Origin: Orenia marismortui DSM 5156
Lineage (GTDB): Bacteria > Bacillota > Halanaerobiia > Halobacteroidales > Halobacteroidaceae
Assembly: GCF_000379025.1 (NCBI RefSeq)
Contig: NZ_KB900617.1
Location: 431,547 to 495,546, forward strand
DNA: 64,000 nucleotides
Direction: 5' to 3'
The notes below the pieces were generated by a model. The model was given only the letters and a program-made list of their open reading frames with translations, searched no databases and had not been told where the DNA came from. A program made the position numbers and the translations under genes. Numbering within the stretch: position 1 is the first letter of the stretch; each line of letters begins with the position of its first letter. This document shows positions 20,330 through 60,345 of this stretch, in pieces.

Positions 20330-20362
20330 TAATCTCCACTTCCTTCTTCTTATTTTTAATTT

Positions 20363-20460
20363 TGTTACTTGTTACTCATCACTTGTCACTTCTCACTTGT
20401 CACTTGTCACTTGTCACTTCTCACTCATCACTCATCACTTCTCACTTCTCACTTCTCACT
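20363..20460 (-). repeat. Degenerate 7-bp tandem repeat (TCACTTG/TCACTTC/TCACTCA)
   Basis: About 14 consecutive heptamers of the form TCACTNN (GAAGTGA or CAAGTGA on the minus strand) fill the space between queC and the activase gene. The last unit runs into the activase reading frame and provides its TGA stop codon (20456-20458). Length is likely to vary between strains by slippage. Confidence 0.9.
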
Positions 20461-27250: not shown

Positions 27251-27554
27251 GATTTCACCTCCATTACTTTTTAAAACTCAAATAATAGTCCAAGCTTGCT
27301 AGTAAATAAATTTTAGTAAGTTAATAATTCAAACTACTACTTTCTAGTTAAATATATATTTTAACTTAATAGAATAAATTATTAACTTTATACTTTCCAC
27401 CATTAATTATATTAGAATAATATTACAAATGATTTAAATTTATATTAACTTTTGTTAATAAGCCCATTATTAACCATTAAATAGTCTTGATTGATATAAA
27501 ACATTAAAGAATTATAATAAAGTAGGACCAGCCTCACGGCTGGGACCCCTTGTC

Positions 27555-27588
27555 AAACTGTACGTACGGTTTTCCCGTATACAGCTTT
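27555..27588 (-). other. Group II intron domain V
   Basis: A 34-nt hairpin, the standard length: AGC catalytic triad near the 5' side, GAAA tetraloop and a two-base CG bulge on the 3' side. All catalytic hallmarks are intact, so the ribozyme may still be active. Confidence 0.9.
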
Positions 27589-27661
27589 CGGTTATTGGTG
27601 CTCCTTATCAGAGAGTAAGTCTTCGACTCTATGTTACCATAGATGTATATTTTACCCTTAA

Positions 27662-42868: not shown

Positions 42869-44770
42869 TTATTCTTCTAAATTCATCTCTAATCCATATC
42901 CATACTCAAACAATGGATCATAATCTTCATCATTAATATTAATAGGAACTTGATTTATAGCTTTTGGCCAAGAAACAGGTAATTTACCTGTGAAGTTATA
43001 ATCACCAAAGATAACATCAGCTACTCCTTGCCCTTCACTCCCTGGTAACCATGCAGCGACAAAGGAATCCCAATCTGCAATCTCTTTGCTTACAATCAAT
43101 GGTCTTCCAGAAACCATAATTGCTACGACTGGCTTGCCAGATTTTCTTGCTTCTTGAAGAGCACTAAGGTCTGTTTCACCTAATTTTAACTCTCCATTAT
43201 CACCTTTAAACTCAGTATAAGGTTGCTCTCCAATTACAACTACTACAATATCAGCATTATCTATCTCTTCTACTACCTTTCCTTGACCTGTTACTGCTTT
43301 TTCAATACCTTCTTTTATTGTAGTTCCCTCAGTAATATCTCCACTCTTACCTTGCCATTCAATAGTCCATCCCCCACACTGATTTCCTATATTATCAGAA
43401 TTAGAACCTGATACATAGATATTAGCCTCTTTAGATAATGGCAGAAGGTTATTTTTATTCTTCAATAATACCAATGACTTTCTAACAGCCTCTCTCGCTA
43501 CTTCTCTATGCTCTACAGATCCAAAACTACCTTCCTCTAGTAATTTTCTGTTTGCAAAGGGCTCTTCAAATAGATTAGCCTTAAATTTAACTGTTAGAAT
43601 TCTCCTTACAGCATCATCAATTCTTGATCTACTTATATCTCCATCTTCAACCGCCTTTTTAGGATAATGAATAAATTGTTTCCATTTATTTGGTTCCATA
43701 ACCATATCAACACCTGCATTAATGGCCTTGACAACCTTCTTAGCATAATTAGGAGCCTTAATCTCATCTAAAGCTTCCCAATCAGAAACAACATAGCCTT
43801 TAAAACCAAGCTCATCCTTTAATAGATCAGTTAATAGATACTTATTGGCATGCATCTTAAGACCTTTCCAGCTATTAAAAGAGGCCATTACTGTTCCTAC
43901 ATTCTCTTCAATAGCTTTAATATAACCGGGTAAATGGATTTCACGTAAAGTTGATTCATCTAAACTCACATCTCCTCTATCTATCCCCGCTTTATGAACA
44001 TCTGTATGAACTGTAAAAAAATCACTCATAGAATATGACATCCCTGTACCCCATTCAGTTCCTCCATCACCAATAAAATGTTTAGCAGTAGCAACTACAT
44101 TTTCACCACTCATACTATTACTTTTACCTTGTAATCCTCTCACATAAGCTCCAGCCAATAATTCTTGTAGCTTAGGGCTTTCTCCAAAACTTTCATAAGC
44201 TCTACCCCAGCGTTCATCACGAGAAACTGCAACAGTAGGAGCAAAAGTCCAATCTAGTCCAGTAGCTGCAACCTCTTTTGCAGTTACTCTAGCAACTTCT
44301 TCTACCAAATCGGCATCTCGAGTAGCTCCTAATCCTATATTATGAGGGAAGATAGTTGCACCTTTAACATTATTGTGCCCATGTACAGCATCAATTCCAT
44401 AGATAATAGGAATCCCAAGTCTAGTACTTAAAGCTTCCTTCTGGAATTGATCATACATATCTGCCCAAGCCTTTGGAGTGTTTGGATTAGGCACAGAACC
44501 ACCGCCACTCAATATTGAACCTAATTTATATCTTTTAATATCACCTGAATATACTCCTTGTCTGTCAGCCTGAACCATCTGTCCTATCTTCTCTTCTAAA
44601 GTCATTTGACTGAGTAAATTATCTACTCTCTTTTCAATATTAATATTAGGATCTTTATAAACACTATCTATCTCCAATACTGAAACACTTTTTTCCTGCT
44701 TCATACAGCCTACAGATAAAATAATCAAAATTAAACTTAGATAAAAAAAATATAATCTTTTATTATACAA
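42869..44770 (-). CDS. GH3 beta-glucosidase lipoprotein
   Basis: 633 residues. TTG start at 44768-44770 with AAGGAGG seven bases upstream. Lipobox LSVGC (about 18-22). The GH3 N-terminal TIM barrel has IPIIYGIDAVHGHNN, GRAYESFGE, VATAKHFIGDGGT and the nucleophile Asp in GYVVSDWEA (about residue 328); the C-terminal alpha/beta sandwich begins near 430 (LVLLKNKNNLLPLS). Ends with GYGLEM. It releases glucose from short beta-glucans outside the cytoplasm. Part of the beta-glucan locus. Confidence 0.94.
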   Translation of the reverse strand: MYNKRLYFFYLSLILIILSVGCMKQEKSVSVLEIDSVYKDPNINIEKRVDNLLSQMTLEEKIGQMVQADRQGVYSGDIKRYKLGSILSGGGSVPNPNTPKAWADMYDQFQKEALSTRLGIPIIYGIDAVHGHNNVKGATIFPHNIGLGATRDADLVEEVARVTAKEVAATGLDWTFAPTVAVSRDERWGRAYESFGESPKLQELLAGAYVRGLQGKSNSMSGENVVATAKHFIGDGGTEWGTGMSYSMSDFFTVHTDVHKAGIDRGDVSLDESTLREIHLPGYIKAIEENVGTVMASFNSWKGLKMHANKYLLTDLLKDELGFKGYVVSDWEALDEIKAPNYAKKVVKAINAGVDMVMEPNKWKQFIHYPKKAVEDGDISRSRIDDAVRRILTVKFKANLFEEPFANRKLLEEGSFGSVEHREVAREAVRKSLVLLKNKNNLLPLSKEANIYVSGSNSDNIGNQCGGWTIEWQGKSGDITEGTTIKEGIEKAVTGQGKVVEEIDNADIVVVVIGEQPYTEFKGDNGELKLGETDLSALQEARKSGKPVVAIMVSGRPLIVSKEIADWDSFVAAWLPGSEGQGVADVIFGDYNFTGKLPVSWPKAINQVPININDEDYDPLFEYGYGLEMNLEE

Positions 44771-44799
44771 AGTTTATCCTCCTTATTTGCTCCAGATTA

Positions 44800-46428
44800 T
44801 TATTTTAAATTCTGATTAACTTCTACCACATTATTGATTAAATTCAACTGTTCTTTAGATATTTTGGCCTGATCTTGAATTTTAAAATATAGATCTGTAT
44901 TGGCTTTTGTTACTTCCTTAATTATCTCACCCATCTCATTTACAGAGACTAGTGCTTCTTGACTTTGACTAGATACCTCTTCACTTGATGCAGATATTTG
45001 TTCAGTCAAGGAACTTAGCTGTTCACTAGCAACAGCTTGATCTTGAGCTGAATTAGTAACTCCCTCCATTCTAGTAGTGATGTCAGTAACTAAATCATTA
45101 ATCTCACTAAAAATATTAACTACATTATCTTCTTGATCACTAGACTTTGACATCATGGCTACAACTACCTTTACTACATCTTCTATTTCATCAGTCATCT
45201 TCTTAACCTCTTTATTTGCTTCCATACTCTCATTAGCCAAATCCTTAATTTCTTCTGCTACTACTGCAAAGCCTAGACCAGCCTCTCCCCTCCGGGTTCC
45301 ATTAGAACCCTCCGTAGTAAAACTTACCCTAGCTGCTTCAATAGCAGCATTTAAAGCCAATAGATTAGTCTGATCTGTTATCTGCATAATCTTATCTGAG
45401 AACTTATTAATCTTCGCTACACTAGTCTGCAATTCTCCCATAGCATCTGCTGCTCTATTAACAATTTCTGATCCTGATTTGATTCTTTGATTAGTAACTT
45501 TGATAGTATCATAAGTTTCTTTACCAGATAGTGAAATAAACTCAGCTTTTTCTGATAATTCTGTAATTCCAGTGGATATTTCTTTAATAGCTATAGCTAC
45601 TTCTTCTACAGCTTCTGAGATTTCATTATTTCCATCCATAAGATTTTGAATAACTTCATAACTTTCAGTCACTTTATCCTCTAATTCATCGGCAATATTT
45701 TTCATATCTTGAGCAGAATCATTAACTGCTTCTGACTTGTTAACAGCTTGATAGGTTTCAGATTTAATTTTACTAGTAACCTTATCAATACCTTTATTAA
45801 TTGTTAAGCCTAGAATAAAAGTAATCATCATACCTATTAAATTTATTATTATTATTTTCTTCCTATTTGCTTCTGATTCCTCAATAACATCATTAAGAGT
45901 TTTATATAATCTATTCCAATTATACTCTTTTAAATATTCATTAACTGTATTAATATTACCCTCTAATGTTCTTAGATCTTTTAAGAGAATATTTTTCATC
46001 ATTCCTTCACTATCTTTCATCTCTTTATTTATTTCTATAAAATCATTATTATAAGCCTTCAACATATTTAATGCTTTTAAGGTTTTTTCATCCTTTATAT
46101 ATTCTTTTAATTTATCTATACCTTTCCCTATTTCATCAAAACGTTCTTGATCTGTAAGCCCCTCAGAATCTGTAAAGGATATTCCTGCTTCTTCTCCATA
46201 AATTCTCTTAAGTTCTTTAGATAAGTGATGATCAATACTACTTGCAGTTTTAACAGCAGGAACAAACTTAAAATTCAACAATTCAACCTCTTTTTTCATC
46301 TGATTAGTATTGGAGACTACAAAAAAACCAACAACAAATATTATTAATAATAATGAGGTAAAACCTATTTTAAATTGTTTATTAATTGTTAATCTAGTAA
46401 TTTCTTTAAATGGTTTAAGCATTTTCAT
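44800..46428 (-). CDS. Methyl-accepting chemotaxis protein with an inserted signalling tip
   Basis: 542 residues. Membrane helices at about 20-38 and 190-210 enclose a four-helix-type sensor. There is no clear HAMP; a long coiled coil follows. The signalling tip reads QTNLLALNAAIEAAR, then VSFTTEGSNGTRR, then GEAGLGFAVVAEEI. Normal receptors have a single Ala (AARAGEAGRGF), so there is a net insertion of about 12 residues. ATG 46426-46428 is preferred (GGATGTG upstream); an ATG at 46443 has no ribosome site. The ligand is unknown; the neighbours suggest sugars. Confidence 0.9.
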   Translation of the reverse strand: MKMLKPFKEITRLTINKQFKIGFTSLLLIIFVVGFFVVSNTNQMKKEVELLNFKFVPAVKTASSIDHHLSKELKRIYGEEAGISFTDSEGLTDQERFDEIGKGIDKLKEYIKDEKTLKALNMLKAYNNDFIEINKEMKDSEGMMKNILLKDLRTLEGNINTVNEYLKEYNWNRLYKTLNDVIEESEANRKKIIIINLIGMMITFILGLTINKGIDKVTSKIKSETYQAVNKSEAVNDSAQDMKNIADELEDKVTESYEVIQNLMDGNNEISEAVEEVAIAIKEISTGITELSEKAEFISLSGKETYDTIKVTNQRIKSGSEIVNRAADAMGELQTSVAKINKFSDKIMQITDQTNLLALNAAIEAARVSFTTEGSNGTRRGEAGLGFAVVAEEIKDLANESMEANKEVKKMTDEIEDVVKVVVAMMSKSSDQEDNVVNIFSEINDLVTDITTRMEGVTNSAQDQAVASEQLSSLTEQISASSEEVSSQSQEALVSVNEMGEIIKEVTKANTDLYFKIQDQAKISKEQLNLINNVVEVNQNLK

Positions 46429-46702
46429 TAGTATCACATCCATTCTGATTGAGTTTTAAACTAATGCTGATTAGATTAAAACTATAATTACTCTTTAATC
46501 TAAAAATAAACCTATATAATACTTCTGAATATATCATATTAAAGACATTTAATTAAAAGATTTCAAAAATCTTAACTTCACCTCTTAAACAGATCAAATT
46601 TAAGATTTATAAAAACTTTCATCTCATCTAATAAGTTTGTAAACTTTTTTAAGATTACATACTAAAGTAATCGATCAATAGGTAGCTATTCACTATCTAA
46701 GA

Positions 46703-48190
46703 CTAATCAAACAAAGTAATAAAAGCCTCTATTATCTTGGGATCAAAAAATGTACCTGCTTTATCCTTTATTTCTTTTAATACAAATTCTTTAGAAATAT
46801 CATTCTGATAATCATAACAATTATAATGACTACCTAGTATATAAGCAGTCTTATAAGTCAAGGCATAATAAATATCTAAAACATGAGCAATACGAGATAA
46901 AAGAGGAATTCTTTCTCCCTTTAATCCTTCTGGATATCCACTACCATCCCAATTCTCATGATGATATAATATATATTCTGAAATTGAATTTAGATAAGTA
47001 AAATTTCTCGAAATATGATAACCTAGGATAGAATGTTCTTTCACTTTTCTTTGCTCTTTAGATGTCAATATTTCTTCTTTATTAGCTATATCTTCTGTTA
47101 AATTTAAAATTCCTATATCATAAAATTCAATTAATAAGGATAGCTTTTCTAAATCATTCTGGCATAAATTCAACTTACGCCCTAGTCTTACAGCCATATC
47201 TTTCATACTTTCTATATAAGAGATCCTTTGATAGTCGGTTTCAGACAACTTATTAATTAGAGCATTTAATAAAAAATTATCTGATGAGTTTTTAATTTGT
47301 GATTTATTTTCATACATTTTTTTACCTGCTACCTTAAATATATCTTCTATAGATTTTATCCCTTTTTCAAATTCATATTTAGTAGAAATCCCCAAAGATA
47401 TACTAGGGGGAATAGGTTTTAAATTTGACTTTTGGCATAGATCTTTAATTCTTCTGACAACATGATCTGCTCCTTTATCATCAGTTTGAGGTAGAATAAT
47501 ACAAAATTCATCACCACCCCAACGCACTACAATATCAGAGCTGCGAGTCGATTTATTTAATATATCTGCTACCTCTATTAATAATTTATCACCCATTTGA
47601 TGTCCAAAGATATCATTTGTCATTTTTAAACCATTTATATCCCCCATTATTAGGCTCAGGGGATAATTACTTTCTACATCTAATTTTTTGATAGTTTCTT
47701 CATAATAATTACGATTATAAAGACCAGTTGTTGTATCATGAAAGGTAAGATAGTTTATTTCTTCTTGAACTTGCTTTTTTTGGGTTATATCATGAATTAT
47801 TGAATATAATAGTTTCTTACTTTTAGTCTTTATAAGACTAGCATAAACCTCTACATCTCTTATATCTCCATTAGCCAATCTATGTTTAAAATAAAAATGA
47901 TTTTTTTCTTCATCCTCTACCTTTCTTATTTTTGCCAATAATTTTTGGAAGGATAAAGTATTTATATCCGTTAAATTTTTCTTTAAAATTTCTCTTTTAC
48001 TATAGCCATAATAAGATAGTGCAGCAGAATTAACATCTATAATATCACCATTTTTAGGATCAGCTAAAATAATAACTGAATAATTATCTTCAAATATATT
48101 TTTATAATAACTTAGATAATTTCGATTTTGATTTATCTGAAATATAGTATAAATCAGAAAAATAACCAGTAGTAATATAACTAATGACAT
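46703..48190 (-). CDS. Membrane PAS-GGDEF-HD domain signalling protein
   Basis: 495 residues from ATG 48188-48190 (AAAAGGAG six bases upstream); the frame extends to 48220 without a ribosome site. One membrane helix (about 3-20), PAS domain (about 30-140, VNSAALSYYGYSKREIL), GGDEF domain (145-310) with intact WGGDEFCIIL, so a likely diguanylate cyclase, and a C-terminal HD-GYP-like domain. The HD-GYP has GSGYPEGLKGERIP and HHENWDGSGYP but YDIG where HDIGK is expected, losing the metal-binding His, so the phosphodiesterase is probably inactive. Preceded by a tandem RNA-like repeat. Confidence 0.92.
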   Translation of the reverse strand: MSLVILLLVIFLIYTIFQINQNRNYLSYYKNIFEDNYSVIILADPKNGDIIDVNSAALSYYGYSKREILKKNLTDINTLSFQKLLAKIRKVEDEEKNHFYFKHRLANGDIRDVEVYASLIKTKSKKLLYSIIHDITQKKQVQEEINYLTFHDTTTGLYNRNYYEETIKKLDVESNYPLSLIMGDINGLKMTNDIFGHQMGDKLLIEVADILNKSTRSSDIVVRWGGDEFCIILPQTDDKGADHVVRRIKDLCQKSNLKPIPPSISLGISTKYEFEKGIKSIEDIFKVAGKKMYENKSQIKNSSDNFLLNALINKLSETDYQRISYIESMKDMAVRLGRKLNLCQNDLEKLSLLIEFYDIGILNLTEDIANKEEILTSKEQRKVKEHSILGYHISRNFTYLNSISEYILYHHENWDGSGYPEGLKGERIPLLSRIAHVLDIYYALTYKTAYILGSHYNCYDYQNDISKEFVLKEIKDKAGTFFDPKIIEAFITLFD

Positions 48191-48334
48191 ATTTTTCTCC
48201 TTTTTATTATTTATTTTCATCTATATAACTTTAAAAATATGAAAACTATATTTATAAAATATTTATTTTGAAAAATCTAAAACCTAAAATTTAATCAATT
48301 ATTTACGACTTAATAATTAGAGAAAATAGGGTAA

Positions 48335-48635
48335 GAAAGGAGGCACAATGCTCCTCTCTCTTTATATTTATGGGTATTTAATTGAAGAAAACTTAGTTGT
48401 TAATTTATTATCTATATTAACAATCTCATTCCCATAAATCCTTAGTAGTTGAGAAAGGAGTTATGATGCTCCTTCCTCTTTAGATTTATAGGTTTTAATT
48501 GAAGATAGCTTAGTTATTAATTTATTATCTATATTAACAATCTCATTCCCATAAATTATCAGTAGTTGAGAAAGGAGTTATGACACTCCTCTCTCTTTAT
48601 ATTTATAGGGATTTAATTGAAGGCTACTTAGTTAA
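48335..48635 (-). repeat. Tandem 117-118-bp repeat (2.6 units), candidate structured RNA
   Basis: Units start at 48335, 48453 and 48570. On the minus strand each full unit contains TTTATGGG..CC(C/T)ATAAA enclosing TTGTTAAT..ATTAA(C/T)AA, followed by an AGGAG..CTCCT hairpin. The unit-2 changes are C to T on the minus strand in both stems, turning G-C into G-U pairs and so keeping the fold; on the plus strand they would be A-C mismatches. This favours a minus-strand RNA upstream of the GGDEF gene. The rest of the 790-bp gap (48191-49010) shows no gene. Confidence 0.6.
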
Positions 48636-48742
48636 TGTTTCTATAGATCAATCAAATAAAAATAAATTAATAAAATAGTCCACATAATATTAATAGCAAA
48701 ATAGAATATTTCTTTTATTAACTATGCAAATATTTTAATTTG

Positions 48743-48772
48743 TAAGAGAAAGAGGTTAACCTCTTTCTCTTA
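48743..48772 (-). terminator. 30-bp perfect palindrome, probable terminator of the GH16-CBM gene
   Basis: Arms 48743-48757 and 48758-48772 are exact complements (TAAGAGAAAGAGGTT), about 240 bp past the GH16 stop, before the tandem RNA repeats. Confidence 0.6.
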
Positions 48773-49010
48773 TCTATTTTAAAGGGAAAACAACAATTTA
48801 AGAAATCTTTATATCTTCAGTGAAAGTATATAAAAATTCTAACTCATCTTTTTATTTGAAAACTACTTCAATACAATTATCACTCTCTAATAGAATATAT
48901 TGTAAACCTTTGTTTTTCTTCTAATCATCAAACTTATATCTGAAAATATAGACCAAAAAAAGTTAGTTATCCAATCTTCCTAATATATACTAATATATAA
49001 GTTAAACTGA

Positions 49011-51788
49011 TTAATTGATCTGTTCAATACTTACATCATCAATATAAATTGTAGTTGCTACTCCATCTTTAGTTTTTCCTAAACTAAATACTAACTTTGG
49101 ATTATCATCTCTACTCATTGATACATCAAAACTATACTCTTTCATCTCACTACTAAGAGTGGAATTAGTTTCACCATATATAGTCCATGATCCTCCATCT
49201 TCTTGTACCATTACTATTATATCTCTATCTTCTTCTGCTCTTGCTTTGAAAGAAATTTTGTAATTTCCTTTGCTCAATTTTAAATTTTGTGCAAATTGAA
49301 TTGCCCAACTTTGACCTCCAAGAGCAGCCACATCAATCTTAAATTCACCATTTTCTGCACCATATTCATTAACTGCCCCACCTTCACCAGTCCATACATA
49401 CCAGTTACCTGGAGCACCTAACTTGTCTTGAATTTCTTGATCAAAATTACCATTAGCAATTACACCTTCTTCAGCAGAGACAGCATTAGGGTTTTCTGAG
49501 CTATGATCTCCCCAATTCTTCTCATATTCACTATCCCATACCTCTTGACCATCAATTGATTCTGGATTTTGATCTTCATAAATTTTAATATAATCTATCT
49601 CCATAGTCTGTGGGAAAGTTGTTGTTTCATCAGGATTTCCTGGCCATGTTCCACCTACAGCAATATTTAAGATCAAGTAGAATGGGTGATCAAATACCCA
49701 AGTACTACCTACTTCGGCCTTATTTGCAACATGGAATAATTCTCCATCAAGATACCATTCAATCTCATCTTCATCCCACTCTATAGTAAAGTTATGGAAA
49801 GCTTCAGAAAACTTGCTTCCATCTTCTAATCTGTATCCACTACCTTCACTACCATGTCCAGTTCCACCAGGTCCTGGTCCATGAATTGTTCCATGAGTAG
49901 CAGAGTCTCCATCTCCTCCACCAACCATTTCCATAATATCTATCTCACCAGATCTTGGCCAACCTACTTCAGCAATATCATCACCTAACATCCAGATTGC
50001 AGGCCAGATACCTTGACCTTCTGGAAGTTTAGCTCTTACTTCAATCTTTCCATATTCTTGATTGAAATTACCTGCTGTAATCATTCTAGTTGAAGTATAG
50101 TTATAGCTTCCATATCTATCTCTTCTTTTTTCCTCTTTAGCAGTAATCACTAACTTACCATCTGATATCTCTACATTTTCACCATCAGTATAATACTCTA
50201 ATTCATTATTACCCCAGCCTGGGATACCATTGGCATGACCATTTCCTACCTCAAATTCCCAGTCAGATAAGTCTGCCTTAGAATCAAAGCTATACTCTTT
50301 AACAAGCTTCCAATCCTCTAGCTTATCTTCCTCTGCTTCAGTTAATGTGCCCTCTTCAACCAACTCTACTTCTCCTGTCTTAACTAAAAGAACATCATCG
50401 ATATAATAAGTACCAGGATTTAGTAACCAAAACTCAAAGCGAGCATTAGCATTAGTATCTTTCTCCATCACAAAACTTGCTTCATAAGTACGCCATTCAG
50501 TTGTTAATCTATTGTTGGTTTGAACATATGATGCCCAAGCTGCATCTCCTACTCCACCAACTTTCATAGTTAAGTCTATTTTAGACTTAGCTTTAGCCTT
50601 AAATTGAACTTTGTACTTACTTCCTCTAGTTAAAGTAAGTGGACCTTGTAATAGTTGAACAGAATAACCTGCATCATTTCTATTAACATCAATCTTAGCA
50701 GCTCCATTAACTATAGTAGCACTTCCTGAACCACCACTACCTTGATAATAAGACCAGCTTCCCTCTGAATCTAGACTTCCTGATGGAAGATCTCCAGTAC
50801 CATCAGCTGGTTTTTTATCTGATAAAGGCAGATCAAAAGTACCATTACCTAAAATACTATCGGCAGGATCAATAGGTGCATTATCTTCTGTACTTAAACC
50901 TTCTGATTCACCCTCACCTTTAGCCACTTCAACCATAACTACATCATCAAAATAAACTGTACCTTTTGTTCCATTAGACGTCTTTCCTAATTCAAAAGCA
51001 ATCTTAGCTAGATTTGAAGTTACACCTTCAGCAGTAAATTCATAACTATAGCTCTTTCTATCTGTTGTTAGATCAATAATCTCTTTACTGTATTCTCTTC
51101 CACCTTGGACATCTTCTAGAACCTTTACATTCATATCTCTAGCAACATCTGCCCAAGCATTAAAAGTTACCTTATAAGTTGAACCTTCTACTAACTCTAA
51201 ACCAGTTTGGAATAATTGTAAGTTCCAAAATTCCTCACCTACATTACTAATATCAAACTCTAAAACACCGTTATTTATATTATAGTTTGCTTTAGCAGGT
51301 CTCCAATTCTCATACTCTGTAATATTAAATACCTGCCAGGCAGCTTTAGCATTAAATTTAGCAGAATCTCTACTAGGATCTGCAGCAAATCCAAGCTTAT
51401 TTATATCAAAGCTACTATTTTTAATCATGTTAGGTACTATAGCAAAATCTTCTGCACCTAAAGTAACTATCTGGTTTAAATCTCCAGCATTAATTACTAC
51501 CCCATCAATATTTTTAGTTCCATACTTTTCATTACTTACTTTTAAAGTGTAATTACCCTGTTCTAGTCCAAACTCCACTGCAGAACCTGTTTTTGGACCA
51601 GCAACTTTAGCTCCATCTTTAAGTACTTCTACAGTAGCCTCTACAGCATCTTGATTTTCATCTTGAAATGCAATTCTTAAATAAGGCTTTCTTGAAACCT
51701 TATCATCTTGGCATCCTGCAAAGACCATTACTCCTATTAATAAAAATGTTAATACAATAAATCGATTTCTAGAAAATGATTTTTTCAT
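49011..51788 (-). CDS. GH16 beta-glucanase lipoprotein with three carbohydrate-binding modules
   Basis: 925 residues from ATG 51786-51788 (AAGGAGGAG four bases upstream). Lipobox VFAGC (about 19-23), an Ig-like domain (38-110), CBM4/9-type modules at about 125-290 and 305-470, a GH16 domain (about 490-745) with GEIDIMEM, where the two Glu are nucleophile and acid/base (about residue 615), and a third CBM (775-925). GH16 enzymes with this motif cut beta-1,3 or mixed-linked glucans (laminarinase/lichenase). Surface-anchored endo-enzyme of the beta-glucan locus. Confidence 0.93.
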   Translation of the reverse strand: MKKSFSRNRFIVLTFLLIGVMVFAGCQDDKVSRKPYLRIAFQDENQDAVEATVEVLKDGAKVAGPKTGSAVEFGLEQGNYTLKVSNEKYGTKNIDGVVINAGDLNQIVTLGAEDFAIVPNMIKNSSFDINKLGFAADPSRDSAKFNAKAAWQVFNITEYENWRPAKANYNINNGVLEFDISNVGEEFWNLQLFQTGLELVEGSTYKVTFNAWADVARDMNVKVLEDVQGGREYSKEIIDLTTDRKSYSYEFTAEGVTSNLAKIAFELGKTSNGTKGTVYFDDVVMVEVAKGEGESEGLSTEDNAPIDPADSILGNGTFDLPLSDKKPADGTGDLPSGSLDSEGSWSYYQGSGGSGSATIVNGAAKIDVNRNDAGYSVQLLQGPLTLTRGSKYKVQFKAKAKSKIDLTMKVGGVGDAAWASYVQTNNRLTTEWRTYEASFVMEKDTNANARFEFWLLNPGTYYIDDVLLVKTGEVELVEEGTLTEAEEDKLEDWKLVKEYSFDSKADLSDWEFEVGNGHANGIPGWGNNELEYYTDGENVEISDGKLVITAKEEKRRDRYGSYNYTSTRMITAGNFNQEYGKIEVRAKLPEGQGIWPAIWMLGDDIAEVGWPRSGEIDIMEMVGGGDGDSATHGTIHGPGPGGTGHGSEGSGYRLEDGSKFSEAFHNFTIEWDEDEIEWYLDGELFHVANKAEVGSTWVFDHPFYLILNIAVGGTWPGNPDETTTFPQTMEIDYIKIYEDQNPESIDGQEVWDSEYEKNWGDHSSENPNAVSAEEGVIANGNFDQEIQDKLGAPGNWYVWTGEGGAVNEYGAENGEFKIDVAALGGQSWAIQFAQNLKLSKGNYKISFKARAEEDRDIIVMVQEDGGSWTIYGETNSTLSSEMKEYSFDVSMSRDDNPKLVFSLGKTKDGVATTIYIDDVSIEQIN

Positions 51789-51895
51789 TTTTCTCCTCCT
51801 TATAATATTTAATATATATATCATCAGGAGTTGATTATAAAGAGAATTTATAAACTCTTTTTCTTATATTCTTATAAATCCTTAATAATCTATTA

Positions 51896-53269
51896 CTAAT
51901 ACAATAAAGTCTGAATAGAATGAGCTGGGATCACTAATTCTACAACCTTCTCTCCATCCTTTAATGCAAATACTTCTTCTTTATCACTTTCATTCATTAC
52001 TACAACGGCTATACTTCCATCGGTATTTTCAAAAGCAGTAATATTTAATTCTTCTAAATCAGACTTCCATTCAATCCTTTTTGCACCTGGAAGGATATAT
52101 TTACTGAAATGCCCCATATAGTAATAAGGTGTATTATAATATAGAATATCTTTCTCTCTATCTGCCATAATAGGTGCATCACAAAGATTCCCTACATGAT
52201 TTGGTCCACCTTCTTCATTTAAGTACATATTCCAATCACACCAAGCTACAGTCCAATGATTTAGATCAGCAATAATATGGCGAGCATACTTCTCACCAGT
52301 CCACCATTCACCAATTAAATTATCAGTATCGATATTATAATAAGGATTACATCCTTCAGTAAATACTAGATTGGTATTATAAGTCTCATAGGTATAATCT
52401 AATACACCATTATCTACTGTAGATTTGCTGTCTTCAGGACCATACCAGTGAAATCCTACTCCCCAAACCCATTTAGCAGCTTCAGGGTCAGACATAATAG
52501 TATCCACTCTTGACTTCATAATATCTTTATTATGATCCCAGACCATAATCTTCACATCTTCTAGACCCTCTTCTTTCAAGGTTGGTCCTAAAATCTTAAC
52601 AAAGTCTCTTTCTTGCTCATCAGTATAAATACAATTATCCCAAGGAGTTGTAGCCATTGGTTCATTCTGAATTGTTACTCCCCAAATATCTATACCTTCT
52701 TTTTTATACTCTTTAATATACTTAGCAAAATATTTAGCCCATACTTCTTTATATTCATCTTTTAGGCTACCACCATTATTCATTCTCTCATTAGTCTTCA
52801 TCCAAGCAGGAGGACTCCAGGGAGAAGCAAATAATTTGAAGTTTTCTCCTTTAGTCTTCAAAGCATCTTTAATCAAAGGAAGCAAAGACTTTCTATCTCT
52901 TTCAATTGTAAAATCTTTCAACTCTACATCACCAGGGGTCTCAGTATAAGCATAGTTCCCTAAGGAGAAGTCACAACTGTTGATATGAGTTCTACAAAAT
53001 GTATAATTAATTCCCTCATCTGGATCAAAATAAGCATCTATGGCTTCTTGTCGTTTTTCAGGACTTAATTGATCAAGAGTTGAAGAAGCTGCTTCTGTAA
53101 AGGCTCCTCCAAAACCAATAATCTCTTGGAATTTCTTATTTCTATTAATCTCTACAGTAGGGATTTTTTTAGTATAGTCTTGTTGAAAGGATAAAGCTTC
53201 CTTTTCTGTTAATCTATCATCTGTATCTTTTGCTGTTTGAATTACTGTAATTTTATCTAGCTTCATCAT
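51896..53269 (-). CDS. GH30-family beta-glucanase (cytoplasmic)
   Basis: 457 residues, no signal peptide. GFGGAFTEAA (about 52-61) is the GH30 start; acid/base Glu in GVTIQNEP (about 203) and nucleophile Glu in LVFTEGCNP (about 303), plus FHWYG. The subfamily is uncertain (GH30_1/3: glucosylceramidase-like or beta-1,6-glucanase). With GH16 neighbours, a beta-1,6-branch or oligosaccharide cleaver is likely. The next upstream gene is 131 bp away on the same strand. Start follows AAAGGAG. Confidence 0.9.
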   Translation of the reverse strand: MMKLDKITVIQTAKDTDDRLTEKEALSFQQDYTKKIPTVEINRNKKFQEIIGFGGAFTEAASSTLDQLSPEKRQEAIDAYFDPDEGINYTFCRTHINSCDFSLGNYAYTETPGDVELKDFTIERDRKSLLPLIKDALKTKGENFKLFASPWSPPAWMKTNERMNNGGSLKDEYKEVWAKYFAKYIKEYKKEGIDIWGVTIQNEPMATTPWDNCIYTDEQERDFVKILGPTLKEEGLEDVKIMVWDHNKDIMKSRVDTIMSDPEAAKWVWGVGFHWYGPEDSKSTVDNGVLDYTYETYNTNLVFTEGCNPYYNIDTDNLIGEWWTGEKYARHIIADLNHWTVAWCDWNMYLNEEGGPNHVGNLCDAPIMADREKDILYYNTPYYYMGHFSKYILPGAKRIEWKSDLEELNITAFENTDGSIAVVVMNESDKEEVFALKDGEKVVELVIPAHSIQTLLY

Positions 53270-53400
53270 TATACACTCCTTTACTTTTTATTAAGTTAGA
53301 GTTAGGATTAATAGCTGAACATTAATCACCTTAAACCTTAGTAATCAAGTTATTCCAACTTATATTATCTAAATATAATATAATCAACCTTAAAAATATA

Positions 53401-54525
53401 TTATTGATATACTCTTACCCAATCAATATACATCTTCTGTGGAAAATTTGTTGTAGAATCAGGATAACCTGGCCACTCTCCACCTACTGCCACATTTAAA
53501 AGTATATAAAATGGTGCTTCAAATTCATCAAACATAGGATCACTCATATCTTGTCTATGGTATTCAACACCATCTAATTTCCAGATAATTAAATCAGAAC
53601 TCCACTCTACTTCATAGACATGGTAATCATTAGATAAATATTCTGACAGAGCCTTAGACCCACCTATATATTGCCATTCATTTAATTGATTGGCAAAATG
53701 AACCGTTCCATGGACTGTCTGCTCTTTAGAATTATTACCTCCTATTTTTTCCATGATATCGATTTCACCACAGTAAGGCCAATCAACTGTTCCACCAGTT
53801 TCACTAATATTTGTACCAAGCATCCAAAATGCTGGCCAAATCCCTTGCCCTTTTGGAACTTTAATTCTGGCAGCTATCTTTCCATACTTATATTCTACTT
53901 TCTCATTAGTGATCACTCTTGCTGAGGTAAAATTACCTCTATCAAGACCATTACCATTATACTTTGCTTCAATTACAAGTACACCATCACTATTATCTTC
54001 CTGCATTTGGATATAAGAGTTTTCAGAACTATCAGTATAAGCCTGCCATTCCTTATTGAATTTGTATGTTGTTTCTACCGGAAGTACTTGCCGAGTCCAG
54101 TTAGAGGAGTCTAATGTTGGAGAATCAAATTCATCTCTCCAATCAAGAACCCAACCAGCACCAGGCTTCCAATTATCCGGTGGAATCGATATTTGTGAAA
54201 AGCTTATGTCTATCCTTTCGTTACTACCATTAATTAAAATATCTCTAATTTTAGTATGAGATTTATTATATATCTTTATAGTATAATTCCCATTACTTAA
54301 TCTGAATTGAACTAAATCTCCTTCATCACTAGTAATCATTTCTCCCTCTTTATAAACCTCTACTTGGAAAGTAGAATCTAAACTATGCTCAATATTAATA
54401 GTCAAGGTATATTGTTGATCAATATTACCTCCTCCACCACTAGTTTCTTCAGTACAACCACTTAAAATCATAATTATCCAAATTAAAAGTAATATAAAAA
54501 ATGATTTCCCCTTAATCTTAAGCAT
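53401..54525 (-). CDS. GH16 beta-1,3-glucanase lipoprotein
   Basis: 374 residues. Lipobox ILSGC (about 19-23), an Ig-like domain (35-115), then a single GH16 domain (125-374) with GQGIWPAFWMLG and GEIDIMEKIG containing both catalytic Glu. No carbohydrate-binding module, unlike the GH16 at 49011. A laminarinase-type endo-enzyme at the cell surface is the best prediction. Start has AGGAG upstream. Confidence 0.92.
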   Translation of the reverse strand: MLKIKGKSFFILLLIWIIMILSGCTEETSGGGGNIDQQYTLTINIEHSLDSTFQVEVYKEGEMITSDEGDLVQFRLSNGNYTIKIYNKSHTKIRDILINGSNERIDISFSQISIPPDNWKPGAGWVLDWRDEFDSPTLDSSNWTRQVLPVETTYKFNKEWQAYTDSSENSYIQMQEDNSDGVLVIEAKYNGNGLDRGNFTSARVITNEKVEYKYGKIAARIKVPKGQGIWPAFWMLGTNISETGGTVDWPYCGEIDIMEKIGGNNSKEQTVHGTVHFANQLNEWQYIGGSKALSEYLSNDYHVYEVEWSSDLIIWKLDGVEYHRQDMSDPMFDEFEAPFYILLNVAVGGEWPGYPDSTTNFPQKMYIDWVRVYQ

Positions 54526-54578
54526 ATTATTATCTCCTAGTCTATAGGTTTTAAGTTCCTATTTTAGCTAATTAAGTT

Positions 54579-54622
54579 AACCATCAATCGCAGACACCTC
54601 AGCATCCACGATTTTGATGGTT
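54579..54622 (-). terminator. Hairpin after the glycan-binding lipoprotein gene
   Basis: AACCATCAATCG can pair with CGATTTTGATGGTT (18-base loop). It lies 13 bp past the stop. There is no T-run, so its role is uncertain. Confidence 0.35.
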
Positions 54623-54634
54623 TTGAAACTATTA

Positions 54635-56866
54635 CTACTGAGCAGATTCAAAATAAATATCTGTTAATAATATTTCCATACCTGCTGTTTGATCTGCCGA
54701 ATTATTGTGTATTGCTAGTTGAGTAACTCCTGATAAATCTCCATAACGAGCTAAATCAATAGTAAGCTCTTTCCACCCGTTCCCTAAATCTATTATTGTA
54801 TAGTTACTATCTGAAGTAGTCAAATCATATGGAAACTCTGGTGTATCGGCTCCTGTTAATTGTACTAAAATCATTGGATAATCACTTGTTTTAACTTTAA
54901 GCTTCATTGTATCATAACCTGCTAATGAACCTGCTTCAATCTCATTATAGGCTAGTACATTACCCCAACCAGAACCATATTGAATGCTTATACAAGGGTT
55001 ATAATCTGTATCATCTGCATAAGAGAGATTTTGTGTTGTTCCTGTACCCCAAGTATCTAAGCTACCTACTAAATCTATAGCACCACTTGGAATTCCATCA
55101 GTTGCATATAAATATACTGGATCTGTTGTTGCTTGAATTTCTTCTAATGTAAGATTGATAGTTGTGTCCCCTGATAATACTATAGTTTTTGAAGCTTTTT
55201 GATATCCTGCTAAATTTGCTTCTACAGTATATTGTCTATTCTCTAAATTGAACACTGCATTTCCTAAAGCATCTGTTGTTAGTGGAGTTGCTGTATTAGT
55301 CTGCTTAATTGATACAGTTGCTCCCTCTAATGCGGCTGTCCCATCTGTTAGATTTACTGTCAACGATGATGTTGATAATGCTGTACCTGATGTTACTTTT
55401 ACATTATCTATTGTTACAGTAGATGCTAGACTTGCATCACTTATTGCTCCTAAACAAAAGTTAAGTTTATAAAGGGGAGCTGTTGTGAGTCCAGAAAATT
55501 CAAAACTTGCTTGATAAGTCTGCATTGTATCTGTTAAGCGAAAATCAAATTGTCCTGGTGATACAGCTGCACCTGTTGGTGCTACTTCTAATCTAATATC
55601 TCTTGGCACATTTGACTTTGCCTCAAATGTAACTAGATATCTTCCTGCTCCTGGTACTGTTATACCTTCTTTATAAAACTGTGTCTTCCAAAATGCATCT
55701 CCTACTTCATTAACATCTAATTCTACCGCTCCACTTTCTACTGTAGCTGTTGTTCTTCCTTCTGACCAAATTGTCCAATCTTCACCATCTAATGTAACTG
55801 TTCCATCTGTTGTTCCAGTACTTGTTGCTGTAGTTAAAGAGAAGTCTAAAGAATTATCTGCTCCATTAATAGTCAACGATTGAGAAGTAGTCTCATAGCC
55901 ACTAGCACTTACATCTACTGTATAAGTTCCATCTGACAATGTAAATGTAGCTACACCATTTGCATCTGTTGTAGAATCTATTCCATCAACTGTTACTGTT
56001 GCCCCCTCAATTACACTATCACTAGAATCTCTAACAGTTGTTGTTAACATATATTCTGCTGGTTTTTGTGCTTGAACTTCTTTTAGTGAAACATTATCAA
56101 TATAGAATTTTGTTGCTTCACCTGTTCCTAGTTCAAATATTAAATCTCCTGTAGTTGCTACACTCATATCTGCAGTAAACTCTACAGTATATGTCTGCAT
56201 TTCTGTATTCAAACTCTTAATGTGATTTCCTCCTATATCATTGAACCAAGGATCTGCATCAAGCTGTTCTCCAATATTAACTACAATATCTCTTGCTACA
56301 TCTGCTCTTGCATCAAATCTAAGTATATAATCAGTTCCATCTACTAATGTTATTCCAGATTGAAATAACTTTGGATCATAAGTATTTCCACCAGTAGCTG
56401 TTACATCTGCTACTAATTCTCCATTTCCTATTGCAAGTGATACTGCTCCTGCATCACTCCAAGTTTCCCATTCACTTCCTAGTTCTGTTTCAAAGTCTCC
56501 ATTTGTAATTAAGTTTGTAGAGTTATCTGTAGAACCACCATCAGTACTCTCAGTTAATGTTATGTCTTTACTGCTACCGTCTCCATCAATAACTACAGCT
56601 TCAGTAACAGTTTCATAACCAGTAGCACTTACCTCTACTGTATAATTTCCGTCTGTTAATACCACTTGAGCTATACCATTTGCATCTGTTGTAGCAGTTG
56701 TTCCATCAATTGTTACTGTAGCACCTTCAACTGCACCACTAGAATCTGCAACATTTACTGTTAATGTATACTCAAGAGCATTATTTGTATCATTATCATC
56801 ACTACTACATCCAGCAAAAACCAATAACCCTATTAATAAGATCATTAAAATAGGTAATCTCTTCAT
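54635..56866 (-). CDS. Multi-domain glycan-binding lipoprotein (no catalytic domain)
   Basis: 743 residues. Lipobox VFAGC (about 15-19). Three Ig/carboxypeptidase-regulatory-like repeats (about 30-105, 270-345, 500-575; GATVTIDGT, GATVTVDGI, GATVSIKQT) alternate with two CBM4/9-like modules (about 115-260, 350-490), and a different C-terminal module (580-743, with GSGWGNVLAYNEIEAG). There is no hydrolase motif. This is the pattern of a surface glycan-binding protein, capturing beta-glucan for the neighbouring GH16/GH30 enzymes (inference). Start has AAAGGGGGAT upstream. Confidence 0.85.
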   Translation of the reverse strand: MKRLPILMILLIGLLVFAGCSSDDNDTNNALEYTLTVNVADSSGAVEGATVTIDGTTATTDANGIAQVVLTDGNYTVEVSATGYETVTEAVVIDGDGSSKDITLTESTDGGSTDNSTNLITNGDFETELGSEWETWSDAGAVSLAIGNGELVADVTATGGNTYDPKLFQSGITLVDGTDYILRFDARADVARDIVVNIGEQLDADPWFNDIGGNHIKSLNTEMQTYTVEFTADMSVATTGDLIFELGTGEATKFYIDNVSLKEVQAQKPAEYMLTTTVRDSSDSVIEGATVTVDGIDSTTDANGVATFTLSDGTYTVDVSASGYETTSQSLTINGADNSLDFSLTTATSTGTTDGTVTLDGEDWTIWSEGRTTATVESGAVELDVNEVGDAFWKTQFYKEGITVPGAGRYLVTFEAKSNVPRDIRLEVAPTGAAVSPGQFDFRLTDTMQTYQASFEFSGLTTAPLYKLNFCLGAISDASLASTVTIDNVKVTSGTALSTSSLTVNLTDGTAALEGATVSIKQTNTATPLTTDALGNAVFNLENRQYTVEANLAGYQKASKTIVLSGDTTINLTLEEIQATTDPVYLYATDGIPSGAIDLVGSLDTWGTGTTQNLSYADDTDYNPCISIQYGSGWGNVLAYNEIEAGSLAGYDTMKLKVKTSDYPMILVQLTGADTPEFPYDLTTSDSNYTIIDLGNGWKELTIDLARYGDLSGVTQLAIHNNSADQTAGMEILLTDIYFESAQ

Positions 56867-57057
56867 TATTATCCCCCTTTGAATTTATATCAAGGTCAGT
56901 AAAATTCAATTCAATTTCTGATCAAAGATAATGATTATTAGTTCATATTAAATGAGGTAAGGATAACTTAATTTAGTATTTAATAATAGTTGTTATGAAA
57001 GCTTACAACCTATTTCAGCTAACCTTACCTATATAACTTTTATAATTTGATTTTTGC

Positions 57058-58965
57058 TTAGAAGTTTACGTTATAAGTAGCTTTAATCTCATGTGTTGTA
57101 TAGCCACTATAGTTTGGAGCAATTGTACTAGTATTAGGCCAATTATTCCATGCATAATTCTCTGGTCCATGTTCCCAACTTTCTGCACCATCATACCATT
57201 GATGCTCTGCTTCTTTTTTATACACTGAATTTACTAAATCATCTGCAGTAGCATCTCTATCTAAATTATAATTATCGTATTTATACATTAAACTAAAGCT
57301 ACTATTTTCAGTAATCTTATAGCTAGCTCCTAATTTAATTAAATGTTGTCTACCACTAGCATCTTTTATCACATCATTATCCTCTGTTGCATAACCGAAA
57401 TCATAGCTAGTAGTTAAAGTAACAAATTCATTTAATTTATAACTACTTCCTGCCCCTACTTTAAAACGAGTTTCAGTAGAGAAGTTCTGATCAATAGCCT
57501 TATCATCACCAGTATAGTAATTAATATCACCATGTAAATCTGCAGTTAATCTTTCATCATCAACCAACTTATATGAGCCATTTACATTAAAATCATTATA
57601 TTCCATATCTACATCAAAGTTATCATTCTCTCTAGTCATAACTCTATATGAAGCACCTAGACTCCAAGGACCATCACCAAAGGATACACCAGCTTCAACC
57701 TCTGTCTCAGTATCATCTTCGTCACCATTTAATTGGCTTCTAGTCATTTCATAATTAGTTAAATCTAAAGTAACTGTTGGATTAAACATTGTCTTTAAAT
57801 CATAACTAGCATTCAAACCTAAACCTTTCTCATACCCTGTACCATCTCCATAATTGAAATTAGCATCTCCAAACCAAGAATCCATATCATGATCTGCTCC
57901 AATTACAGCTATATAATCTTCTCCTACATTCTTATAAAAAGTATTAACCTTTAAATTAGGTAATGGATTTACAGTAGCACCAACCTCAAATATATCAGTA
58001 TCTTCCTTAGCTCCTTGGCCGCTTAAATCATAAGCTGGTGTATGCCATGGAATATTCTGCACATTAATAACTTCTGTTACATCATCACCATATTTAGCAG
58101 TAATAAATTCACCATTTAAAGTAACCTTATCTGTTAAATAATAATCACCATTAATAACTAAATGTAAATTATCAAGGTCTTTATCAAAGTTCTCTCCTTG
58201 TTCATCAGAACTTTTATCATGAGTATTTATAATAAGAGCCCCAAGCTTTCCTTTAGCCAAATCCTTCTTCAAATCTGCACCATAAATTAATTTATCTGCT
58301 TTCTTAAATGTATCATGCTCATTAACTATTATGTCATCTCCAGCACTACTTGCAGTACCAGGAGTACCCTTACTTGTTTGGAAGACAAATCCCTGTGTAG
58401 CCACTCCAGCTATATCAGTCTGTACCAATATCCCTTCACCATAAGGAGTCATTTCTCCCCAGTTATCTTCAAATTGAGTAGCAAGAACTCTTTCATTAAA
58501 ATTATAGTTGAAATTATTAGTAGCAATTATTTTAGCATATTTAGTATCTGCAGTAAGAGTTAAATCTCTTAACTGAACTGGAGAATTATCTCTTACAGTT
58601 GGAGTCTCTTGTACTCTAGTAGCTCCTGTACCATTAGGATAACCATTAAACTCATCTGTAAGTGATTCAAATCCAGCATTGATTGTTACAGTATCATCTA
58701 CTGTAATTTTAGTATTTAATAATATCTTGCTTTCAAATTTCTCTCGATTATCATTTGGATTATCAGTTGTAGACTGTTTCCAGTCACCAGTCCCAAATAT
58801 ATTAGTGTTACCATTCATAGAATACCAAGGATTTCCATCAACTTCTGTAAATTCATCAAAAGTCAACCATAATCCCCCATCAAATTCGATTTCTGTCTCT
58901 GCAAATGCAGGTAGTGCTAATGAAAAAACTAATAAAAAAGTAAGTAATAAGGAAATCTTTTTCAT
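57058..58965 (-). CDS. Outer-membrane beta-barrel (porin-like) protein
   Basis: 635 residues. Signal peptide 1-22 (cut after LPAFA). The rest is a long series of alternating amphipathic strands of 8-12 residues with aromatic girdles and Asn/Asp-rich turns. The final strand ends YNVNF, with the terminal Phe recognised by BAM-type assembly, so the protein is an outer-membrane barrel and the cell is diderm. Sequence family not identified. It lies beside the LacI gene and the glycan-binding lipoprotein, so it may admit beta-gluco-oligosaccharides. Start has AGGAGGG upstream. Confidence 0.85.
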   Translation of the reverse strand: MKKISLLLTFLLVFSLALPAFAETEIEFDGGLWLTFDEFTEVDGNPWYSMNGNTNIFGTGDWKQSTTDNPNDNREKFESKILLNTKITVDDTVTINAGFESLTDEFNGYPNGTGATRVQETPTVRDNSPVQLRDLTLTADTKYAKIIATNNFNYNFNERVLATQFEDNWGEMTPYGEGILVQTDIAGVATQGFVFQTSKGTPGTASSAGDDIIVNEHDTFKKADKLIYGADLKKDLAKGKLGALIINTHDKSSDEQGENFDKDLDNLHLVINGDYYLTDKVTLNGEFITAKYGDDVTEVINVQNIPWHTPAYDLSGQGAKEDTDIFEVGATVNPLPNLKVNTFYKNVGEDYIAVIGADHDMDSWFGDANFNYGDGTGYEKGLGLNASYDLKTMFNPTVTLDLTNYEMTRSQLNGDEDDTETEVEAGVSFGDGPWSLGASYRVMTRENDNFDVDMEYNDFNVNGSYKLVDDERLTADLHGDINYYTGDDKAIDQNFSTETRFKVGAGSSYKLNEFVTLTTSYDFGYATEDNDVIKDASGRQHLIKLGASYKITENSSFSLMYKYDNYNLDRDATADDLVNSVYKKEAEHQWYDGAESWEHGPENYAWNNWPNTSTIAPNYSGYTTHEIKATYNVNF

Positions 58966-59126
58966 AAATAAACCCTCCTAATATTAATTAAGTTTAAATT
59001 CTAATATGATTTCTTTCAGATTTAAATTATTAGGACTTATAGGCTTATAAACTTATGCATATAATTCAAATTAATATTAGCTAACTATCCCCCTTTTTAA
59101 TTTAATAGTTTTGCTATTATTATTAA

Positions 59127-59157
59127 ACTGTCAAATATCACAATGATATTGAACAGT
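59127..59157 (-). promoter_or_regulatory. 31-bp inverted repeat between lacI and the porin gene
   Basis: ACTGTCAAATATCA and TGATATTGAACAGT match at 12 of 14 positions around CAA. It lies 160 bp from both genes. It may be the terminator of lacI or an operator of the porin gene. The rest of 58966-59316 has no gene. Confidence 0.5.
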
Positions 59158-59316
59158 CTTCCTTATCAAAGTTAATATATATTGATGAGTTGTTTTGTTG
59201 ACTTATACAGGACTATACCACTAGATCTAAAATTTAATTATAACCTTATTATTTTGTACACTTTGATATATAACACAAAATATACATAATAATAAAATTA
59301 TAATTCAACATTAATT

Positions 59317-60345
59317 CTAAAGTTTATTTAAAGAGATTACAGATTCTCTTTTAATTAATTCCATATCATAGACTATATCTTTAGAGCTATCTATTATTAA
59401 TTTATCATCTATTTTATTCATTAACATTTCCATTCCTACATATCCCATTTCATATCTAGGCTGTTTAAGAGTAGTTAATGGAGGTGTTATTAAAGAAATT
59501 ATATCTAAATCATCACAACCAACTATAGAAATATCTTCCGGTATTTGCAGACCAAATTCCTTGATAGCCCGAATACCACCTAAAGCCATTGCATCATTAG
59601 CATAAAAAATTGCTGTTACTTCTCTATGATTCTTCAAGATTTCACAAGTAGCTTGATGTGAGTCTTCCCCATTAAAATAACCCGATTTAATTAGTCGATA
59701 GTCTATCTCAAAATCAGCTAATGCCTTCTCATACCCCTTCACTCGATCTCGAGAAGATTGTAAAACATCTGGACCTTTGACACAAGCTATCTTTCTATGT
59801 CCCAATTCCAAAAGATAGTTAGTAGCTTTATAAGCAGCTTTACAATTATCAACATTAACTGAAGGTATATTATCAGAATCAACTCTTCTATCTATAAATA
59901 CAATTGGTATGCTGCTCTCTTCCAAAAATTCAAGATAGGATTCAGATATATCTATCCCGCCACCAATCATCAAAACTCCATCTACTATTCCCTCTCTTAG
60001 CATTTTAATCTCTCTTAGTTCTTCTTTAGCAGTCCAATGACTACTACATAACATTAGATTATAATCCTCTTCAATAACCTTCTTTTCGGCACCTTTAATA
60101 TATTCTGAGAAAAAAGGATTAGCTATATCAGGTATTATCAAACCAATCGTTTGAGTCTTATTAGTAGCTAAACTTCTTGCCAATTTACTAGGCAAGTAAT
60201 TAAACTCTTTCATCACTTTTAAAACCTTTTCTCTTGTTTTTTTACTAACATCAGATTTATTATTTAAAACTCTAGATACTGTACTTTTTGATACTCCAGC
60301 TTCCTCTGCAATAGTATATATATTTACACTTTTATTGCTAGACAT
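59317..60345 (-). CDS. LacI-family transcriptional regulator
   Basis: 342 residues. Helix-turn-helix at 6-50 (NIYTIAEEAGVSKSTVSRVL) with the hinge, then a periplasmic-binding-like sensor domain (about 60-335: TIGLIIPDIANPFFSEYIKG, IPVVFIDRRVD form, AIFYANDAMALG). It regulates sugar genes; here the neighbours are the porin and the GH94/GH161 phosphorylase. Its own promoter carries a CGGTACCG palindrome, suggesting autoregulation. The ligand is probably a beta-gluco-oligosaccharide (inference). Confidence 0.92.
   Translation of the reverse strand: MSSNKSVNIYTIAEEAGVSKSTVSRVLNNKSDVSKKTREKVLKVMKEFNYLPSKLARSLATNKTQTIGLIIPDIANPFFSEYIKGAEKKVIEEDYNLMLCSSHWTAKEELREIKMLREGIVDGVLMIGGGIDISESYLEFLEESSIPIVFIDRRVDSDNIPSVNVDNCKAAYKATNYLLELGHRKIACVKGPDVLQSSRDRVKGYEKALADFEIDYRLIKSGYFNGEDSHQATCEILKNHREVTAIFYANDAMALGGIRAIKEFGLQIPEDISIVGCDDLDIISLITPPLTTLKQPRYEMGYVGMEMLMNKIDDKLIIDSSKDIVYDMELIKRESVISLNKL

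Follow-up and report, generated by a model that had tools for sequence, protein, structure and literature searches.

The window, a stretch of 64,000 nucleotides of the Orenia marismortui DSM 5156 genome, carries a set of genes in which all listed ORFs of at least 120 aa, from a LacI-family regulator to a GH3 gene (42869-60345), lie on the minus strand. After the regulator the order is an unknown-family ORF, a CBM protein, GH16, GH30, GH16 with CBMs, the tandem array described here, PAS-GGDEF-HD, a methyl-accepting chemotaxis protein (MCP) and GH3, and judging from these protein families the set looks like a beta-glucan-utilisation locus. Two other genomes of the same genus, G001 and G002, were used for comparison. 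The genes and repeat units that matter here are:

59317-60345, minus strand: LacI-family regulator, at the far end of the one-strand gene set
49011-51824, minus strand: GH16 gene with CBM_4_9 domains, upstream of the array, a conserved neighbour in G001
48743-48773, minus strand: palindromic hairpin downstream of GH16, kept in G001
48334-48634, minus strand: tandem array (TRF period 117, 2.6 copies), the only such locus in its own genome
48567-48634, minus strand: unit 1, partial, with conserved core and P3 and no convincing P1 (CM R1, 94.3 bits)
48450-48557, minus strand: unit 2, full, with P1, P2, conserved core and P3 (CM R2, 125.1 bits)
48332-48440, minus strand: unit 3, full, with P1, P2, conserved core and P3, nearest the downstream gene (CM R2, 129.8 bits)
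46703-48220, minus strand: PAS-GGDEF-HD gene, downstream of the array, with no counterpart at the G001 locus
44800-46443, minus strand: MCP gene, which in G001 comes straight after the element
42869-44770, minus strand: GH3 gene, after the MCP gene in both species

The 117-bp array was the top-scoring tandem array of the window (TRF score 455, 85% match). Its core pattern was matched twice in the window and never in shuffles, and the array occurs at a single place in its own 3.46-Mb genome, with no other copies there, confirming a real, non-chance repeat. Read along the minus strand, partial unit 1, the upstream-most copy, which lacks most of its 5' half, is followed by unit 2, unit 3, some 110 to 145 bases and the start of the PAS-GGDEF-HD gene. 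Both TRF and the pattern search thus bore out an earlier reading, made from the sequence only, of two full units and one partial unit upstream of this gene. Elsewhere in the window, TRF also recorded 14 copies of the 7-base unit TTGTCAC (20362-20460).

Predicted fold of the units

Folding of the whole region gave a z score of -5.2 on the minus strand vs. -2.4 on the plus strand. Within the units, the following elements were delimited:

48431-48439, minus strand: P1 5' strand of unit 3 (AUUUAUGGG); unit 2 equivalent at 48548-48556
48366-48374, minus strand: P1 3' strand of unit 3 (CCCAUAAAU); unit 2 equivalent at 48484-48492
48397-48423, minus strand: P2 of unit 3 (UUGUUAAU/AUUAACAA); unit 2 equivalent at 48514-48540; not kept in G001
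48375-48399, minus strand: conserved, mostly unpaired stretch CAACUAAGUUUUCUUCAAUUAAAUA inside P1 of unit 3, from the G001 alignment
48333-48360, minus strand: P3 hairpin of unit 3, with a weak terminator-like call and no clean U-run
48451-48478, minus strand: P3 hairpin of unit 2
48568-48595, minus strand: P3 hairpin of unit 1

In the full units, P1 pairs AUUUAUGGG with CC(C/U)AUAAAU and encloses both a weaker inner stem, P2, in which UUGUUAAU pairs with AUUAA(C/U)AA, and a largely unpaired conserved stretch reading AACUAAG-N4-CUU-N-AAUU. P3 is a stable 10-bp hairpin that starts five bases past P1, e.g., GAGAGAGGAG-loop-CUCCUUUCUC. The P1 5' strands, which were found by complementarity, beat shuffled upstream sequence at p=0.001 in G001, 0.0015 in unit 3 and 0.03 in unit 2; in the same shuffles unit 1 P1 was no better than chance (p 0.37). 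The nested P1 and P2 stems with a GGAG/CTCC P3 that the sequence-only reading had described stand in the two full units; in the partial unit P1 is not significant. The two G-U changes it had singled out in unit 2 are correct, one lying in P1 and one in P2, and P3 holds further strand-informative changes that it had missed (pairs 46-68, 47-67 and 43-71 of alignment A2). The P1 strands could also pair across neighboring units, the 3' strand of one with the 5' strand of the next, as the letters themselves suggest.

Hairpins are not confined to the array. The palindrome after GH16 is 28 to 30 bases long and near perfect, and G001 carries a compensatory change in it from GG/CC to GA/UC. In neither species does a U-run accompany it on the minus strand, and no canonical minus-strand terminator follows GH16, the genes around being on the same strand; read-through is therefore possible. 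This context resembles the SRPS stem-loops of the clostridial cip-cel GH operon (PMC4423207, PMC10311766), which likewise lie between GH and other one-strand genes. By analogy, a polycistron would be cut near the stem-loops and its abundant GH part stabilized relative to the signaling genes, as the single orientation of the GH16-to-GH3 genes inside a beta-glucan gene set and the strong conserved hairpin without a U-run would allow. We consider this doubtful: unlike the documented SRPS stem-loops, the array is built of tandem units, its P1 is long-range and an unpaired stretch is conserved, and neither of the last two features is needed by simple stabilizing hairpins.

Each unit might instead be a gene for one short trans-acting transcript, as in the tandem sibling sRNAs NgncR_162/163 (PMC9973317), which are similarly alike, multicopy and intergenic. 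The units are structured, and the element is retained in G001 despite a different next downstream gene. Unlike NgncR_162/163, no promoter or terminator was seen per array unit: promoter calls for individual units stayed at shuffle level, a terminator-like call, itself weak, arose in unit 3 only, and a clean U-run in no unit. Tandem sRNA genes are accordingly an improbable account.

On the plus strand, a AGAAAGGAG motif followed by ATG opens a short frame in each unit, such as one of 29 residues in unit 3. This SD-like motif with ATG recurs in three of three units, and small protein genes might thus be read from that strand. The frame of unit 2, however, is spoiled by a nonsense codon and a frameshift, and in G001 the ATG is missing at this position and stops come early, which makes this reading very improbable indeed. 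Lacking a conserved ORF, a small protein or type I toxin repeat is for the most part refuted by these two sequences.

A single syntenic copy in a sister genome

The corresponding spacer of G001 holds one core copy in the same place and orientation, in the order GH16, element, MCP, GH3. No GGDEF gene lies between element and MCP at that locus, no remnant of one was found in the spacer, and the closest GGDEF-HD relatives that G001 and G002 offer lie elsewhere and reach no more than about 41 to 43% identity. In the third genome of the genus, G002, the GH16 protein went unmatched and the element had no convincing copy. The MCP and GH3 genes follow the element in both species and the GGDEF-HD gene intervenes in one only, which suggests that the element belongs to the locus rather than to the GGDEF gene; the tie to the PAS-GGDEF-HD gene drawn in the sequence-only reading is unsupported. 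Nor is the tandem arrangement conserved, with one copy in G001 vs. three cores here, which leaves the suggested tandem aptamer or protein-binding array unproven. The MCP itself has about 12 extra residues (VSFTTEGSNGTR; 45292-45327) in the otherwise highly conserved tip of its signaling domain (EAARAG..GRGFAVVA), absent from the G001 orthologue.

Core identity between the species was 74 to 79% vs. 51 to 71% at four-fold sites of neighboring genes (values uncorrected for base composition), only modestly higher, and sequence constraint is thus moderate. Constraint on pairing was clearer. RNAalifold, applied to units 2 and 3 and the G001 copy, recovered P1 and P3 on the minus strand, with an energy of -20.1 kcal/mol vs. 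-14.3 kcal/mol on the plus strand; the covariation term was favorable on the minus strand only and unfavorable on the plus strand. Column shuffling gave z scores of -7.2 (minus) and -4.6 (plus), and the G001 unit alone scored -3.2 sense and +0.9 antisense. Among P1 and P3 cells 98.2% were paired, compared with 49 to 71% in slid controls, a value to be read beside a shuffled-letter control that equaled the pairing seen here 144 times out of 500. Three P1 and P3 pairs were changed on both sides. The changes run from U-A to C-G and among G-C, G-U and A-U in P1, and among A-U, G-U and G-C in P3. Across P1, P2 and P3 of the three units and G001, excluding the weak unit 1 P1, the minus-strand tally was nine G-U vs. 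one A-C (p=0.011), the units being paralogues and the events non-independent. P2 is broken in G001 when aligned with units 2 and 3.

A stem preserved solely as a DNA inverted repeat should give similar scores on the two strands; the difference found, and the 9:1 excess of G-U, favor an RNA read from the minus strand. A structured minus-strand RNA is well supported as a prediction from these comparisons, the fold of P1 and P3 being conserved on the sense strand and accompanied by compensatory changes. Covariation events are few, since they come from two species and four units, three of them paralogues. The comparison of homologous intergenic regions that the sequence-only reading had proposed, here with G001, yielded the double-sided changes in P1 and P3, and one syntenic relative thereby turned an argument from two substitutions into a testable RNA model. 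Its RNA fold is strengthened in these two stems and lost for P2 in G001. Further copies with disrupted pairing, which it had named as evidence against the fold, gave a divided answer: P1 and P3 hold, P2 and unit 1 P1 fail.

The same data bear on two further alternatives. As a DNA regulatory element, the core would be a promoter or operator and P3 a start-site hairpin; most of the best-conserved stretch is indeed unpaired, and its end, CC(T/C)ATAAAT, lies a short way ahead of the hairpin. P1 and P3 pairing is better kept on one strand, a bias that a DNA site would not call for, and we regard this account as unlikely. A sigma-28-like promoter, TAAG-N16/17-CCYATAAAT, was weighed and set aside: the pattern is unenriched in the genome (two matches vs. 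one for the reversed control), visual inspection of the main flagellin gene did not reveal it, and it is not a motif common to the array and the flagellar and MCP genes of the genome. The array might also be a functionless tandem duplication of a fragment, which would suit a copy number that varies (three cores vs. one) and a core identity only modestly above four-fold sites. Cross-species compensatory changes that keep the structure, better on one strand, speak against it and make it quite unlikely. The rivals thus rank, in order, as SRPS-like processing hairpins, tandem sRNAs, a DNA element and neutral duplication.

Distribution and a candidate regulatory RNA

At gathering score, Rfam 15 returned no match at the array; the matches in the window, all outside it, were a SAM riboswitch, two tRNAs and a group II intron. 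The riboswitch (S box) lies at 2443-2548 on the minus strand and scored 101 bits, and the group II intron match is at 27517-27589, also on the minus strand. Searching 48220-48800 up to E=10 gave no credible match, and the c-di-GMP-I and c-di-GMP-II riboswitch models matched neither the window at gathering score nor 48220-48800 at E=10. Among 59 genomes of the class, only the three units and the G001 copy stood out with CM R1, the other matches (30 to 38 bits) resembling unrelated hairpins. Among 199 genomes of the phylum, CM R2 found one match of 33.8 bits (G081), level with chance matches in the window itself. The exact core pattern was absent from 84,980 GTDB genomes and from viral contigs, a collection that may omit near relatives, and an MCP-based search for the locus in GTDB genomes found none. 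Across the class and the phylum sample, the element is convincing in two species only.

Tandem riboswitches include c-di-GMP-I/II, glycine and TPP types, and triplets are known (PMC9481103). Like these, the array consists of repeated predicted RNA units ahead of genes; unlike them, it has no Rfam match (E up to 10) and no clear expression platform, is single-copy in the sister species and is untied to one gene. It is defined by pairing-preserving changes, as are structured RNA candidates from comparative genomics (PMC2864571), from which it differs in being restricted much more narrowly (two species) and in its far weaker covariation. On this footing the array is probably a new candidate orphan structured RNA, itself a known kind. 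Given the glucanase context, an antiterminator of the LicT/RAT type was also weighed, and we take the array sequence to be unlike it.

Our preferred reading, to which we give a probability of about one half, is a lineage-specific, cis-acting structured RNA on the minus strand, positioned between GH16 and the signaling and GH3 genes in an mRNA leader or an intercistronic region. No promoter above shuffle level was found at the array, and we infer that it is transcribed and acts in cis. The conserved unpaired bases within P1 would be a recognition site for a protein, a ligand or a partner RNA, P3 would be the stable part, blocking the transcript or protecting it, and the copy number in this species would provide repeated binding or a stronger effect. 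More tentatively, the array may represent a new, narrowly distributed class of regulatory RNA that uses the unpaired stretch in P1 as a sensor, controls the chemotaxis and signaling and the beta-glucosidase genes of a beta-glucan-utilisation locus, and was amplified to a triple array in one species. If transcribed, the candidate would be a structured RNA not described before, connecting the breakdown of polysaccharides with chemotaxis signaling genes in a poorly studied lineage, and the one-copy and three-copy species offer a natural comparison.

Separately, a TGTCGAAA-like motif, which we presume to resemble a Spo0A box, is shared by the regions upstream of two MCP genes (L046, L048).
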